The notes under the pieces are model-generated. The model was not told the DNA's origin. It ran no database searches and worked only from the letters and a program-made list of their open reading frames with translations. A program made the translations under genes and the position numbers. A stretch of DNA of 38,379 nucleotides from Desulfobacteraceae bacterium (GTDB lineage Bacteria > Desulfobacterota > Desulfobacteria > Desulfobacterales > JAABSP01), in assembly GCA_011389855.1 (NCBI GenBank), contig JAABTM010000012.1:1-38379 (forward strand). The letters are read 5' to 3'. This document shows positions 13,490-20,596 of this stretch, piece by piece. Each line of letters begins with the position of its first letter. The first letter of the stretch is position 1.

Positions 13490-14698
13490 ATGAGCGAACC
13501 ACTGATTCGATTTGACGACATCCATAAACGATTCGGGACCAACGAGGTGCTCAACGGGGTGAACCTCTCCGTCTACGAAGGGGAGATCACCACCGTCATC
13601 GGCAAGAGCGGCGGCGGCAAAAGCGTGCTGCTCAAACACATCGTCGGTCTTATGCAACAGGACGAGGGGCGGGTTCTCATCGAGGGCAAACCCCTTCGGG
13701 AGATGACCCGGGCGGAGCGGCGGGCCATGAAGCGCCGGTTCAGCTATATGTTCCAGGGCAATGCGCTGTTCGATTCCATGACCGTCTACGACAACGTGGC
13801 CCTGCCCCTCAAAGAGAAGACCGACATGCCCAAAAAGGAGATCCCCGGGCAGGTCGAGAAAAAGATGGACCAGCTCGATCTCCACGACATCCATAACAAA
13901 TACCCCTCCCAGCTTTCCGGCGGCATGCAGAAGCGGGTGGCCCTGGCCCGGGCACTGGTGACCGATCCGGAGATCGTCCTTTTCGACGAACCCACCACCG
14001 GGCTCGATCCGGTGCGGAAAAACGCGGTCCACAGCATGATCTCCGACTACCAGCAGCAGTTCGGGTTCACCGGCGTTATCGTCAGCCACGAGATCCCGGA
14101 CGTCTTCTACATTTCCCAGCGGATCGGGATGCTCGACGAAGGGCGCATCATCTTCGAAGGGAAGCCGGAGGATATCCAGAACTCCCGTGATCCGTTGGTG
14201 CAGCGGTTCGTTCAGGGATTCGAGAGCCGCCACGATCAACTCACCGGCATGGCGCCCCAGTCCCAGGGCGAACAGCGGTATCGGGAGGAGATCGCCCGGA
14301 TGGACCGCTATCAGAACGTGTTTTCCCTGATCCTGCTGACCATGGATCGCATCGACGGCGAACGGAAACGGGACCACGAGGCCCATCAGACCGCTCTCAA
14401 AGAATTTTCCCAGCGGATCCGAAACCATCTGCGGCTCACCGACATCTGTTCGCGATACGGCATGAACAAGCTAATGATCATCCTGCCCAACGCCAACCAG
14501 CAACAGGCCGAAGAGGTCTGCGCCAAGCTGGCGGCCAATCTCCAGACGACCGAGGGCGCGGATGCCCTGTTCGGGAGCGAGGGCTGCTTCCGGGTGACGG
14601 CCGGCATCGCCGAAGCCGCCAAGGACAGCCCCATCGAACAGGTGTTGTCGGCGGCCGAGGAGGCGCGGAATCCATTCTATGAGTTCAGGGTATGCTAA
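13490..14698 (+). CDS. mlaF: MlaF ABC ATPase with C-terminal degenerate GGDEF-like domain
   Basis: A 402-residue protein, about 140 residues longer than a usual MlaF. Residues 1-245 are a complete ABC ATPase: Walker A GKSGGGKS (38-45), Q-loop MFQGNALF, signature LSGGMQKR (142-149), Walker B VLFDEP (163-168) and the switch His200, with the MlaF-style GMLDEGRIIFEGKPEDI. After a short linker, residues about 262-395 follow the fold pattern of a diguanylate-cyclase GGDEF domain: NVFSLILLTMDRID, an amphipathic helix, RNHLRLTDICSRYG, LMIILPNANQQQAEEVCAKL and RVTAGIAEAAKD. The signature that should follow RYG is MNKLMI instead of GGDEF, so catalysis and c-di-GMP synthesis are not expected. No mlaB gene is in the operon; the extra domain may stabilise or regulate MlaF instead (inference). 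Confidence 0.9.
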   Translation: MSEPLIRFDDIHKRFGTNEVLNGVNLSVYEGEITTVIGKSGGGKSVLLKHIVGLMQQDEGRVLIEGKPLREMTRAERRAMKRRFSYMFQGNALFDSMTVYDNVALPLKEKTDMPKKEIPGQVEKKMDQLDLHDIHNKYPSQLSGGMQKRVALARALVTDPEIVLFDEPTTGLDPVRKNAVHSMISDYQQQFGFTGVIVSHEIPDVFYISQRIGMLDEGRIIFEGKPEDIQNSRDPLVQRFVQGFESRHDQLTGMAPQSQGEQRYREEIARMDRYQNVFSLILLTMDRIDGERKRDHEAHQTALKEFSQRIRNHLRLTDICSRYGMNKLMIILPNANQQQAEEVCAKLAANLQTTEGADALFGSEGCFRVTAGIAEAAKDSPIEQVLSAAEEARNPFYEFRVC

Positions 14699-14718: not shown

Positions 14719-15168
14719 ATGAAACGTTCGACTGTTGAGATATCCGTGGGCATCTTTGTCCTTATCGGCATTCTGTGCGTCGGGTACCTGACCGTCAAGC
14801 TCGGAAAGATGGAGTGGTTCGGGGAAGGGTATTATCCCCTCAAGGCCCGGTTCACCTCGGTCACCGGCCTGAAAACCGGCACTGAAGTTCAAATGGCGGG
14901 GGTGTCCGTGGGGAGGGTGGCGAAAATCGCCCTGGATCCCGACCTCAAAATCGCCATGGTCACCCTCAATATCCGGCAGGATCTGGAACTGACCGAAGAT
15001 GTCATCGCCTCGGTTAAAACCGCGGGGCTTATCGGCGACAAATATGTCAGCCTCACCCCCGGAGGCGCCATGGACATGCTGAAGCCGGGCGACACCATCG
15101 TCGAAACCGAGTCGGCCGTGGACATCGAGGAACTGGTGAGTAAATATGTATTCGGAAGCGTGGAGTAA
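14719..15168 (+). CDS. mlaD: MlaD-family MCE lipid-binding protein
   Basis: A 149-residue inner-membrane-anchored MCE protein, the periplasmic ring subunit of the MlaFED complex. One N-terminal membrane helix (about 8-28) is followed by a single MCE domain (about 38-120): LKARFTSVTGLKTGTEVQMAGVSVGRVAKIAL and TAGLIGDKYVSLTPGG are the family hallmarks. Length is typical for single-MCE MlaD. GGAGGAAAC lies just before the ATG, 20 bases after the mlaF stop, and mlaC follows after 27 bases. It should hand lipids between MlaC and the MlaE/MlaF membrane complex. Confidence 0.94.
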   Translation: MKRSTVEISVGIFVLIGILCVGYLTVKLGKMEWFGEGYYPLKARFTSVTGLKTGTEVQMAGVSVGRVAKIALDPDLKIAMVTLNIRQDLELTEDVIASVKTAGLIGDKYVSLTPGGAMDMLKPGDTIVETESAVDIEELVSKYVFGSVE

Positions 15169-15195: not shown

Positions 15196-15840
15196 ATGAA
15201 ACGAACGATCATAACGATATTGTGCATGGGGCTGTCTCTGGCCCTCACCGTCCCGGGACAGGCCGCCAACAAACCGGAAACCCCGGCGACCGACGCCGTG
15301 AGAAACCGGCTCGAGAACGTCATCGACATCCTCAAGGATCCGGCATACGACGAAGCGGCGCCGGAGAAACTGGAGGAACAGCGCCGGAAAATCCTGAAGC
15401 AGGTGGACGGGTTTTTCGATTTCCAGCGGATCGCCCAACTGTCCCTGGGCCGGTTCAGGCGGCAGTTCAGCCAGGAGGAGATGAAGACCTTCACCGCTCT
15501 GTTCACCGATCTGTTGACCAACACCTATCTGAAACAGGTGCAGGAAGAATTCGAAAACGAAAAAGTCGATTACCTGGAAGAGGTCCATCATCCCTCTGAC
15601 AAAGATCGGGTCATGGTCAAAACCCTGGTCTACCGAAAGGGAAACAAAGTCCCCGTCGATTACAGCATGTACTTCGAAGACGGGCAGTGGCAGGTCTACG
15701 ACGTGAAGGTGGAAGGGGTCAGCCTGGTGAAGAACTACCGGACCCAGTTCGAAAAAATCCTGCTCAACGAATCGCCCCAGGCCCTGATCGACAAGGTCCG
15801 GGATAAGCTCGAGGAAAAGGATGAGGAAAAAACATCGTAG
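15196..15840 (+). CDS. mlaC: MlaC-family periplasmic phospholipid-binding protein
   Basis: A 214-residue secreted protein: a signal peptide (MKRTIITILCMGLSLALTVPGQAA) followed by a mature MlaC/Ttg2D domain with FFDFQRIAQLSLGRFRRQFSQEE, YLKQV and the C-terminal VDYSMYFEDGQWQVYDVKVEGVSLVKNYRTQF, which is the strongest family signature. It ferries phospholipids across the periplasm between MlaA and MlaD. AAAGGAGAAAC precedes the ATG. Its 3' end overlaps mlaA by 20 bases in another frame, so the two are likely coupled. Confidence 0.94.
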   Translation: MKRTIITILCMGLSLALTVPGQAANKPETPATDAVRNRLENVIDILKDPAYDEAAPEKLEEQRRKILKQVDGFFDFQRIAQLSLGRFRRQFSQEEMKTFTALFTDLLTNTYLKQVQEEFENEKVDYLEEVHHPSDKDRVMVKTLVYRKGNKVPVDYSMYFEDGQWQVYDVKVEGVSLVKNYRTQFEKILLNESPQALIDKVRDKLEEKDEEKTS

Positions 15841-16817: not shown

Positions 16818-16846
16818 TTGACAGAGGTTTTCCGCCTTTGATAAAT
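16818..16846 (+). promoter_or_regulatory. Promoter of the fadB-thiolase operon
   Basis: TTGACA (16818-16823), then a 16-17 base spacer and a -10-like GATAAA/ATAAAT (16840-16846). It is overlapped at its 3' edge by the 20-bp palindrome, which would place a bound repressor over the -10 region and start site. Confidence 0.65.
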
Positions 16847-16864
16847 GAATGAATATTCATTCAT
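16845..16864 (+). promoter_or_regulatory. FadR-type (TetR family) operator, perfect 20-bp palindrome
   Basis: ATGAATGAATATTCATTCAT is a perfect palindrome. Its inner 18 bases fit the operator consensus I recall for the TetR-family fatty-acid regulator FadR of Bacillus subtilis (TGAATGAMTANTCATTCA). It covers the -10/start region of a beta-oxidation operon, so acyl-CoA-relieved repression is the natural model. No tetR gene is in the window. Confidence 0.7.
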
Positions 16865-16901
16865 GTCAGGTGATGTTAATCTATTCCCAGGAGGTAAACA
16901 G

Positions 16902-19310
16902 ATGATCAGAAAGATAAAACAAGCGGCCGTGATCGGTTCCGGCGTCATGGGCGGGGGCATCGCGGCCCTGCTGGCGTCCGCCGGGGTCAAAACGCTCCTG
17001 CTGGATATCGTCCCCTTCGATCTCAAAGACGAAGAAAAGGACGATCCCAAGGCGCGAAACCGGATCGTCAAGGCGGGTTACGACGCCATGGTCAAGGCCA
17101 ATCCCCCCCTGCTGATGCACAAAAAGGATGTGGCCCGGATCAGCATCGGCAACCTGGAGGACGATTTCGACAAGCTGAAGGACTGCGACTGGATCGTCGA
17201 GGTGGTGGTGGAGAACCTCAAGATCAAGCAGGATCTCCTCGGTCGGCTGGAAGGGGTCCGGAAAGAGACCTCCATCGTCTCCACCAACACGTCGGGGATT
17301 CCGCTCAAGTCCATGTCCGAAGGGCTGAGCCCGGATTTCAAACGCCACTTCATGGGAACCCACTTCTTCAACCCGGTCCGGTACATGAAGCTGCTGGAGC
17401 TGATCCCCGGAGGGGAGACCGACCCGGAAGTGCTCGACTTCATGGCCGATTTCGGCGAGCGGATCCTGGGCAAAGGGATCGTCTGGGCCAAGGACACCCC
17501 CAACTTCGTGGGCAACCGCATCGGGGTCCAGGGCATCGTCAAGGCTATGCAGGTCATGCTCGAAGACGGTTTGACCATCCCCGAGGTGGACGCCCTGTTC
17601 GGCCCGGCCATGGGCCGTCCCAAGACCGCCATGTTCAAGACCTCCGACCTGGTGGGCCTGGACACCATGGCCCATGTGGCCAAAAATACTTACGATCTGG
17701 TGGAAGACGATGAGCAGCGGGACAGCTTCAAAATCCCGGAATTCGTCAACAAGATGATCGATCAAAAGTTGCTGGGCAAAAAGGCCAAGGCCGGCTTCTA
17801 CAAGACCGACCTCACCCCGGAGTGGAAGAAGATCCGGAAGGTCATCGATCCCGAAACCCTGGAATACGCGGAATACGACAAACCCGATTTCCCCTGCCTC
17901 CAGGCGGCCAAAAAGGCCAAGATCCTGCCCGAAAAGATGCGGGCCGTGGTTTACGGCGACGACAAGGGCGCCAAGTTCGCCTGGAAGGTGGTGGCCAACG
18001 GCCTGATCTATGCGGCCAACCGGATTCCCGAGATCTCGGACACCATCGTGGAGATCGACAACGCCATGAAGTGGGGCTACAACTTCGAGATGGGCCCCTT
18101 CGAGACCTGGGACGCCATCGGCGTAAAGGAATCCGTGGAGAAGATGGAAGCCGACGGCTTCGACGTGCCGGAAAAGGTCAAGAAGATGCTGGCGGCCGGG
18201 AACACCTCCTTTTACAAGACCGAGAACGGCACGGTCTATTTCTACGATTTCGAGACCCAGGGATACAAAGAGCGGACCGTCAGCGACAAGATCGTCTCGC
18301 TCTCCGCCCTCAAGGGCGCCGACCGGACCGTCCAGTCCAACAAATCCGCCTCCCTCGTCGATCTGGGCGACGGCGTCTTCTGCTGTGAGTTCCACACCAA
18401 GATGAACGCCATCAACAAAGAGATCGTCGATTTCATGGGCGAGGCCATGGAATACGTGGATCAAAACGGCGTGGGCCTGGTAATCGGCAACCAGGCGGGC
18501 GGCATGCCCGGCGCCTTTTCGGCCGGCGGCGACCTGTTCTACATGGGGTCCCTGGCCAAAGAAGGCAAGTTTGCCGACATCGACGCTTTCCTGCGGCAGG
18601 CCCAGGAGGGGATGCAGCGGATCAGGTACGCCCACTTCCCCGTGGTGGCGGCGCCCTACGGCATGACCCTGGGCGGCGGGTGCGAGGTCTGTCTGGGCAC
18701 GGCGGACAAGATCGTGGCCCACGCGGATCTCTTCATGGGGCTGGTGGAAATCGGCGTCGGCCTGCTGCCGGCGGGCGGCGGCTGCCTCAACCTGTGGAAG
18801 AAGTTCCTGAGCACGGTCCCCGAGGCGGTAAGCGATTACGACCTGGGCAAATTCTTCATCCCGGCCTTCATGAACATCGCCATGGCCAAGGTCTCCAACT
18901 CGGCGGCCGACGCCCGGGCCAACGGGTTCCTGGGCCCCAACGACCGGATCATCTTCAACCGGGATTACCTCATCGGCGAGGCCAAGAAAGAGGTCCTCAA
19001 CATGGTGGACGTCGGCTACGCCCCGCCGGCCCGGCGGAAGGTCAAGGTGCTGGGCGAAGCGGCCCAGGGCATGATCGCCGGCGAACTCCACAACATGCTG
19101 AGCGGCAAATTCGTCAGTGAATACGACGCCTTCCTGGCCAATCGGATCGCCTATGTGTTAAGCGGCGGCGACGTCCGAACCAACACCGAAGTGGACGAAT
19201 CGGTCATCCTCACCCTGGAGCGGGAGGCCTTCATCGATTTCTGGAAGCAGGAAAAAACCCAGGCCCGGGTCGAGCACATGCTGAAAACGGGGAAGCCCCT
19301 TCGAAACTGA
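16902..19310 (+). CDS. fadB: 3-hydroxyacyl-CoA dehydrogenase / enoyl-CoA hydratase fusion (FadN/FadB-like)
   Basis: An 802-residue multifunctional beta-oxidation enzyme. The N-terminal half is a 3-hydroxyacyl-CoA dehydrogenase: Rossmann motif VIGSGVMGGGIAALLASAG (10-28), STNTSGIPL, GTHFFNPVRYMKLLELIPG with the catalytic His, DTPNFVGNRIG, then the C-terminal helical domains. The C-terminal part (about 470 onward) is an enoyl-CoA hydratase/crotonase domain with GAFSAGGDL and GMTLGGGCEVCLG oxyanion-hole segments and VEIGVGLLPAGGG. Dehydrogenase first and hydratase second is the FadN order, reverse of E. coli FadB. AGGAGG lies 7 bases before the ATG at 16902; the upstream ATG at 16845 lies in the operator and is rejected. 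A thiolase follows, giving a complete hydration-oxidation-thiolysis unit. Confidence 0.93.
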   Translation: MIRKIKQAAVIGSGVMGGGIAALLASAGVKTLLLDIVPFDLKDEEKDDPKARNRIVKAGYDAMVKANPPLLMHKKDVARISIGNLEDDFDKLKDCDWIVEVVVENLKIKQDLLGRLEGVRKETSIVSTNTSGIPLKSMSEGLSPDFKRHFMGTHFFNPVRYMKLLELIPGGETDPEVLDFMADFGERILGKGIVWAKDTPNFVGNRIGVQGIVKAMQVMLEDGLTIPEVDALFGPAMGRPKTAMFKTSDLVGLDTMAHVAKNTYDLVEDDEQRDSFKIPEFVNKMIDQKLLGKKAKAGFYKTDLTPEWKKIRKVIDPETLEYAEYDKPDFPCLQAAKKAKILPEKMRAVVYGDDKGAKFAWKVVANGLIYAANRIPEISDTIVEIDNAMKWGYNFEMGPFETWDAIGVKESVEKMEADGFDVPEKVKKMLAAGNTSFYKTENGTVYFYDFETQGYKERTVSDKIVSLSALKGADRTVQSNKSASLVDLGDGVFCCEFHTKMNAINKEIVDFMGEAMEYVDQNGVGLVIGNQAGGMPGAFSAGGDLFYMGSLAKEGKFADIDAFLRQAQEGMQRIRYAHFPVVAAPYGMTLGGGCEVCLGTADKIVAHADLFMGLVEIGVGLLPAGGGCLNLWKKFLSTVPEAVSDYDLGKFFIPAFMNIAMAKVSNSAADARANGFLGPNDRIIFNRDYLIGEAKKEVLNMVDVGYAPPARRKVKVLGEAAQGMIAGELHNMLSGKFVSEYDAFLANRIAYVLSGGDVRTNTEVDESVILTLEREAFIDFWKQEKTQARVEHMLKTGKPLRN

Positions 19311-19331
19311 ACTATGATTTCAAGGATTTAA

Positions 19332-19366
19332 ATGATGGCCATGATGGGGATCATCATGGCCATCAT
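19332..19366 (+). other. Intercistronic hairpin between fadB and thiolase
   Basis: A perfect 15-bp stem (ATGATGGCCATGATG at 19332-19346 with its complement at 19352-19366) and a GGGAT loop. There is no T-run, so it is probably an mRNA stability or processing element rather than a terminator. The thiolase Shine-Dalgarno AAAGGAGG follows about 38 bases later. Confidence 0.8.
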
Positions 19367-19417
19367 CCCAATCAGATGAATCACAGTTCAGACACCTTAT
19401 AAAGGAGGAAATCTACA

Positions 19418-20596
19418 ATGAGAGACGCATATATCGTTACATCCGTCAGAACCCCCGGCTGCCGGCGCGGCAAAGGGGCGCTGAAAGACACCCGACCCGA
19501 GGATCTGCTGGCCTTTATCCTCAACGCGGCCGTGGATAAGACGTCCAATCTGGACAAAAAACTGATCGACGACGTGATGATCGGCTGTTCCTTTCCCGAA
19601 GCCGAACAGGGCCTCAACATCGGCCGGATCGTCACCCAGATCGCCGGATTCCCCGAAGAGGTCTCCGGCGCCACCGTCAACCGGTTCTGCGCCTCGGGCC
19701 TGGAGGCCATCTCCCAGGCGTCTCTGCGGGTCATGTCCGGCTGGTCCGAAATTGCCATCGGCGGCGGGGTGGAGTCCATGACCTACGTGCCCATGGGCGG
19801 CAACCTGCCCCGGCCTCATCCCGAACATACCCGGAAGCACGCGGATTTGTACACCTCCATGGGCATCACAGCCGAGAACGTGGCCCAGCGGTACAACGTC
19901 GCCCGGGAAGACCAGGACGAATTCGCGTACAATTCCCAGATGAAGGCCGCCAAAGCCATGAACGAGGGGCTGTTCACCGAACTCATCCCCACCCCGGCGG
20001 CCAAATTTGAACTGGGCGAGGACGGGATCTATAAAAAAGAGACCTTCATCATCGACCACGACGACGGCATCCGGCCCACCACCACCAAAGAGGGCCTGGG
20101 CAAGCTCAACCCGGTCTTCGCCGCCGGCGGCAGCGTCACCGCCGGCAACTCCTCCCAGACCACCGACGGCGCCGCCGCCGCCATTATAATGAGCGAGGAC
20201 AAGGTCAAGGAACTGGGCGTCCAACCCATCGCCAAGCTCAAATGCTACACCACCGTCGGCTGCCGGCCGGATGAAATGGGCGTCGGGCCCCGATATGCCA
20301 TCCCCAAGCTGCTGAAGCTGGCCGGGATGGATGTAAAGGATATCGACATCTTCGAGATTAACGAAGCCTTTGCCTCCCAGGCGATTTATTGTGTGAGGGA
20401 GTTGGGCATCGATATGGAGAAGGTTAATATCCATGGGGGGGCGATTGCTTTGGGGCATCCATTGGGCTGCACCGGGGCGAAGTTGTGTGCGACGTTGTTG
20501 GCGAATATGAGGGAGCGTGGAGCAAAATTCGGCGTGGAGTCCATGTGCATTGGCGGCGGAATGGGGGCCGCGGCGTTGTTTGAGATGATAGAATAA
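19418..20596 (+). CDS. fadA: Thiolase (acetyl-CoA C-acyltransferase)
   Basis: A 392-residue type II thiolase that cleaves 3-oxoacyl-CoA to acetyl-CoA and a shortened acyl-CoA. Catalytic residues are all present: nucleophile Cys91 in VNRFCASGLEA, NEAFA, His347 in GGAIALGHPLGCTGAK and Cys377 in MCIGGGMGAA. Placement behind the FadN-like gene and a shared leader point to a degradative role. AAAGGAGG precedes the ATG. Codon choice changes sharply near the end: from about 20390 to the stop all seven leucines are TTG, with many GTT, ATT, TGT, AGG and GCG codons, while upstream leucines are mostly CTG or CTC; the protein stays intact. A strong terminator follows. Confidence 0.95.
   Translation: MRDAYIVTSVRTPGCRRGKGALKDTRPEDLLAFILNAAVDKTSNLDKKLIDDVMIGCSFPEAEQGLNIGRIVTQIAGFPEEVSGATVNRFCASGLEAISQASLRVMSGWSEIAIGGGVESMTYVPMGGNLPRPHPEHTRKHADLYTSMGITAENVAQRYNVAREDQDEFAYNSQMKAAKAMNEGLFTELIPTPAAKFELGEDGIYKKETFIIDHDDGIRPTTTKEGLGKLNPVFAAGGSVTAGNSSQTTDGAAAAIIMSEDKVKELGVQPIAKLKCYTTVGCRPDEMGVGPRYAIPKLLKLAGMDVKDIDIFEINEAFASQAIYCVRELGIDMEKVNIHGGAIALGHPLGCTGAKLCATLLANMRERGAKFGVESMCIGGGMGAAALFEMIE

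Follow-up and report, generated by a model that had tools for sequence, protein, structure and literature searches.

A GGDEF-derived domain with a replaced active site is fused to the Mla transporter ATPase MlaF across much of the Desulfobacterota

RESULTS

The locus and its genes

The window, that is, the whole 38,379-nucleotide stretch of Desulfobacteraceae contig JAABTM010000012.1 (assembly GCA_011389855.1) analysed here, carries a complete mla operon on the forward strand in the order mlaE-mlaF-mlaD-mlaC-mlaA (Table 1). No STAS gene lies between mlaE and mlaA, in agreement with the earlier note, which had reported this operon to be without mlaB. Downstream on the same strand (window positions 16845-20596) are genes for a fused 3-hydroxyacyl-CoA dehydrogenase/enoyl-CoA hydratase and an apparent thiolase, placing fatty-acid beta-oxidation genes next to phospholipid transport genes. 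The same genome (G000) holds a second MCE-type transporter (locus L115, contig C490:6185-8195), in which the permease is a 413-residue protein with an N-terminal STAS domain and the ATPase partner is MlaF-like and unfused; such a covalent STAS-MlaE is an alternative to a free MlaB.

Table 1. Genes of the mla operon and features within MlaF (positions in the window)
Feature	Position	Strand	Evidence
mlaE, permease, 267 aa	12668..13471	+	PF02405 E 3.3e-76
mlaF, ABC ATPase with C-terminal GGDEF-derived domain, 402 aa	13490..14698	+	PF00005 E 3.6e-36; PF00990 E 4.7e-15; AlphaFold2 mean pLDDT 83.7
MlaF ABC ATPase part, residues 1-244	13490..14221	+	Walker A, Q-loop, LSGGM signature, Walker B and H-loop intact
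Degenerate GGDEF domain, residues 245-402	14222..14695	+	Pfam; PDB profile search, best E 1.7e-23; Foldseek
DQLTG, N-terminal D-x-L-T-G motif of GGDEF domains, residues 249-253	14234..14248	+	Alignments
Thr284, replaces metal-binding Asp (D327 of PleD)	14339..14341	+	T/S in 50/60 subtype A, 23/32 subtype B
Gln300, replaces guanine-contacting Asp (D344 of PleD)	14387..14389	+	Q in 53/60 subtype A, 20/32 subtype B
RLTD, at c-di-GMP I-site RxxD position, residues 315-318	14432..14443	+	R in 44/60, D in 59/60 subtype A
GMNKL, in register with GGDEF, residues 324-328	14459..14473	+	Alignments
mlaD, 149 aa, short type	14719..15168	+	PF02470 E 4.4e-22; NCBIfam TIGR04430 above cut-off
mlaC	15196..15840	+	PF05494 E 1.7e-43
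mlaA	15821..16651	+	PF04333 E 1.3e-67

The ATPase part of MlaF had been described as complete and normal, and this holds: its motifs are all intact, and K44, Q89, S143-M146, D166-E167 and H200 are invariant in an alignment of 67 fused homologues. The full ABC motif set, the signature at residues 142-146 with the Met of SGGM included, and an operon with mlaE and mlaD assign the protein to the MlaF family. In structural alignments with MlaF of the Escherichia coli MlaFEDB complex (PDB 6xbd, 6xgy) the ABC part is aligned over its whole length at 35% identity, with all motifs present, and the E. coli Mla system has the same partners MlaE, MlaD, MlaC and MlaA. The window protein scores 187 bits against the NCBIfam MlaF equivalog NF008809, under the cut-off of 441; because this model is tuned to E. 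coli-like MlaF, the shortfall counts against the label of an E. coli-type MlaF and not against that of an MlaF homologue in an mla operon.

Identity and extent of the C-terminal domain

By sequence and by predicted fold, residues from about 245 to 402 of MlaF are a GGDEF domain. PF00990 matches residues 247-392 with 59.5 bits (cut-off 23.8) in the full protein, reaches E 4.4e-16 on the C-terminal domain alone, and is found in 89 of 92 homologous C-terminal domains. When a profile of these 92 domains was searched against the PDB, it matched 50 sequences, nearly all of them named diguanylate cyclases or GGDEF proteins. The domain was also modelled separately (AlphaFold2 mean pLDDT 81.6), because ABC ATPases swamped the fold search with the full-length model; with the domain-only model, all 50 PDB matches listed by Foldseek were GGDEF structures (TM 0.58-0.74). 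The GGDEF-like extension claimed in the earlier note is thus present, and diguanylate cyclases are the top matches that it had expected of a structure prediction. Its extent needs correction: the extension had been placed at 14252 with about 135 residues, and since DQLTG occupies residues 249-253 we set the start at about residue 245 (about 14222), which gives about 158 residues. In the AlphaFold2 models, too, the ABC fold leads straight into a compact folded domain, with the junction near residue 245, and in alignments DQLTG sits directly past the point where the C-terminal extension of E. coli MlaF starts. A frameshift or assembly artefact was ruled out, as the fusion occurs in single-contig genomes and at more than 100 loci. 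A fused MlaF from a second species is 91% identical, and the scanned contigs include a close relative, the MAG Desulfobacteraceae bacterium S20.Bin143.

Catalytic positions, I-site and conserved cysteines

Fused domains fall into subtype A, to which the window belongs, and subtype B; residues were called by alignment of 60 subtype A and 32 subtype B domains with solved diguanylate cyclases. The earlier note had read MNKLMI where GGDEF would be expected, and GMNKL does align in register with that motif, the majority form in subtype A being G[ML][ND][KR][IL]. The two further replacements, Thr284 and Gln300, fall on positions which we take, in PleD numbering, to be the metal-binding D327 and the guanine-contacting D344. 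With GMNKL, Thr284 and Gln300 in catalytic positions, an active diguanylate cyclase was excluded on sequence, and the window domain is expected to be without cyclase activity. The replaced positions are themselves conserved (Gln300, Asn326, Lys327); the catalytic residues were therefore exchanged for others under new constraint and did not merely decay. The least degenerate motif seen is the GADEF of a subtype B fusion (L210 in G741), in which the metal-binding Asp is still Thr.

An I-site RxxD, as expected of degenerate GGDEF domains that act as c-di-GMP receptors, is found in the window and is not kept in all relatives: 15 of the 60 subtype A domains have the Asp and lack the Arg, and the motif is lost in subtype B (32 domains compared). 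Subtype A also has conserved cysteines (window positions 14447-14695), namely C320 (54/60), C344 (48/60), C366 (44/60) and the C-terminal C402 (36/60), and the consensus of the ABC part contains none. That these four cysteines serve redox or metal sensing is in our estimation very unlikely, since a Cys at position 320 also occurs in the ordinary diguanylate cyclase SiaD (7e6g) and C320, C344 and C366 stand together in only 36 of the 60 domains.

Distribution, origin and loss of the fusion

The survey sampled GTDB genomes within the phylum Desulfobacterota. An MlaF match at E <= 1e-70 was obtained in 223 of 390 genomes of the window's order, and many of these matches span the entire fused protein. 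Among 291 genomes drawn at class level, at least 104 full-length fused loci (79 subtype A, 25 subtype B) were counted by hand in the matches listed, which came only from genomes of the window's order. The phylum-level draw of 395 genomes gave 50 with a full-length fusion, 42 of them outside that order and there mostly of subtype B. Where the surroundings of fused loci were read, nearly all of these loci belong to mla operons that encode a short MlaD and in most cases MlaC and MlaA as well. Only mlaF was recognised near the second subtype A copy of G171 and the first subtype B copy of G030, and the same is true of G117 and G727, where the loci are near contig ends. The fusion was absent from all sampled systems with an MlaD of about 500 residues or a STAS-MlaE permease. 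On one contig (L194, G520) fusions of both subtypes occur about 3 kb apart, and that of subtype B lies in a full mla operon.

Mapping presence and absence of the fusion onto trees built from the ATPase part alone requires 14-15 changes of state. Both states occur within families f7, f41 and f49 and within a single genus (g6, a clade with 100% SH-aLRT support), where G114 and G198 are fused and G006, G074, G143, G164, G181 and G222 are unfused. The domains of G114 and G198 are visibly decayed, and MlaF of L079 (G044) and L215 (G706) ends in a shortened remnant of a GGDEF-like domain; some of the unfused states, at least, are therefore losses. The aligned fusions of both subtypes share a junction just after F-[IV]-x-G, and both subtypes carry the changes of D327 to T/S and of D344 to Q. 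These shared features favour a single origin and suggest one ancient fusion of a domain that was probably already dead. It is from them that we infer it, as the deep branches of the ATPase tree are weakly supported and the origin of the domain is not read from a resolved tree. Taken together, the fusion is old, has been kept across much of the Desulfobacterota, and has been lost several times.

In nine pairs of close relatives, dN/dS was 0.11-0.31 for the domain and 0.07-0.14 for the ABC part, so the domain is under purifying selection and is less constrained than the ATPase. The repeated losses, the decay in G114 and G198 and the remnants in G044 and G706 could be taken to mean that the domain is a vestige without function. 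However, dN/dS lies well under 1 in all nine pairs and new conserved residues extend across dozens of families, which makes this extremely improbable.

The absence of mlaB

In the earlier note the extension was linked to the missing mlaB, and this link fails: relatives with an unfused MlaF lack mlaB as well, and the survey gave no anti-correlation, mlaB being absent near fused and unfused operons alike. By coordinates, a STAS_2 domain was found in the mla operon of none of the 37 genomes examined, fused or unfused, and E. coli MlaB as query gave no significant match in the loci, in a search that is insensitive. In four genomes (G006, G023, G048, G052) the E-F-D-C(-A) operon encodes an unfused MlaF, and a genome-wide search gave no STAS_2 hit. 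Absence of mlaB is the rule in the surveyed group, which agrees with phylogenomics in which MlaB is sparsely distributed and the MlaEFD core is ancestral (PMC10665443). As mlaB is absent with or without the domain, the domain is not explicable as a response to its absence.

A replacement of MlaB, in which the domain would dock on the helical subdomain of MlaF and stabilise it, might be proposed from the window operon without mlaB, from the need of E. coli MlaF for MlaB for stable association (PMC7367683), and from the covalent attachment of STAS in the STAS-MlaE of contig C490. We find it quite improbable, given that otherwise identical operons with unfused MlaF also do without mlaB, four of them in the genomes without any STAS_2 just named, that loss of the domain within a genus brings no recognisable STAS gene nearby, and that an MlaEFD core lacking MlaB is regarded as the ancestral state (PMC10665443).

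DISCUSSION

The reading that we favour, and judge somewhat probable as a whole, is that an active-site-dead GGDEF domain joined the C-terminus of MlaF of an MlaEFDCA transporter once, early in the Desulfobacterota, and now serves as a non-catalytic regulatory domain that associates as a dimer. The fusion point is the very place taken in E. coli MlaF by the C-terminal 'handshake' extension. In E. coli this extension of about 25 residues wraps around the other MlaF subunit, and function is lost when it is deleted but largely regained when a GCN4 dimerisation domain is substituted for it (PMC7367683); because of this exchange, a dimerising domain at the junction could plausibly serve. In other ABC ATPases, compact C-terminal domains self-associate below the nucleotide-binding domains and regulate them (PMC7367683). 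Because the GGDEF-derived domain starts exactly at the point of the E. coli extension, a regulatory or dimerisation role of the MetN, ModC and MalK kind may be proposed. By analogy with the C-terminal domains of these proteins, two copies would probably associate below the nucleotide-binding domain dimer, and this association would have the effect of stabilising or adjusting both the dimerisation of MlaF and its ATPase activity, perhaps in response to a ligand or partner.

Several points bear against a regulatory dimer. The models are of single chains, and self-association is proposed by analogy. GGDEF domains often contact one another only via ligand or upstream helices. Moreover, several relatives have neither the domain nor the extension, so dimer stabilisation is not generally needed. 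In favour of the reading are the purifying selection on the domain, the conserved residues at its former catalytic positions and its wide spread, and the repeated losses together with the remnants in G044 and G706 fit a regulatory accessory better than an essential part.

It might be asked whether the ligand is c-di-GMP, bound by the retained I-site RLTD so that lipid transport is coupled to the sessile or motile state. The window and 44 of 60 subtype A domains have the complete RxxD, D318 occurs in 59, the window's genome has nine GGDEF matches at E <= 1e-8, probably including MlaF itself, and G052 and G100, which have no GGDEF match at all, have an unfused MlaF. However, many GGDEF domains have an RxxD, which could be merely inherited here, a quarter of the subtype A domains (15/60) keep the Asp without the Arg, subtype B has no motif, G754 has a fused MlaF yet no other GGDEF gene at E 1e-20, and the association of unfused MlaF with GGDEF-free genomes comes down to two genomes of one genus. 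We regard a c-di-GMP receptor as unlikely; going by these motifs, only subtype A could sense c-di-GMP, and in subtype B a response would be unlikely because the I-site is lost.

Returning to the regulatory dimer domain, its nearest counterparts in architecture are MetN of the methionine importer MetNI, ModC and MalK, which likewise combine an ABC ATPase with a compact regulatory domain at its C-terminus; Foldseek aligned 356-369 columns of MetN with the window MlaF. The MetN domain, in contrast, is ferredoxin-like and ligand-sensing, is not GGDEF-derived, and belongs to another transporter family. In E. coli, MlaF ends in the extended tail of about 25 residues and is accompanied by the STAS protein MlaB, whereas the window has a folded domain of 158 residues and no MlaB. 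The diguanylate cyclases PleD, SiaD and GcbC share the fold, the sequence family and the I-site RxxD with the window domain, in which their metal, guanine and GGDEF residues are replaced. An ammonium transporter (PDB 8qj3, 8qpf) also has a C-terminal GGDEF domain on a transporter chain, although there the domain is attached to a membrane channel protein instead of an ABC ATPase. Effectors of c-di-GMP of the PopA type, with a degenerate GGDEF domain, resemble the window domain in a dead active site and possibly a working I-site, and differ in not being transporters and in that the I-site is missing in subtype B MlaF.

The earlier note knew of no described case, and the literature searched on MlaF with GGDEF or c-di-GMP, in which subscription papers were partly beyond reach, contained no such fusion either. 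The MlaF-GGDEF fusion thus seems undescribed, both families and C-terminal regulatory domains on ABC ATPases being already known. We consider it unlikely that the fusion defines a phylum-wide class of Mla systems whose phospholipid trafficking is gated by the dead GGDEF domain of the ATPase as a sensor of c-di-GMP or some other nucleotide; if true, outer-membrane lipid balance would be linked directly to second-messenger signalling.

The regulation of the Mla ATPase is an open question even in E. coli. In much of this phylum, the position of the E. coli dimerisation extension is occupied by a domain of signalling origin joined to the ATPase. Natural deletions of this domain have occurred several times, even inside a single genus, so that comparison of close relatives can test what the MlaF C-terminus does, and the fusion may connect nucleotide signalling directly with outer-membrane lipid transport.
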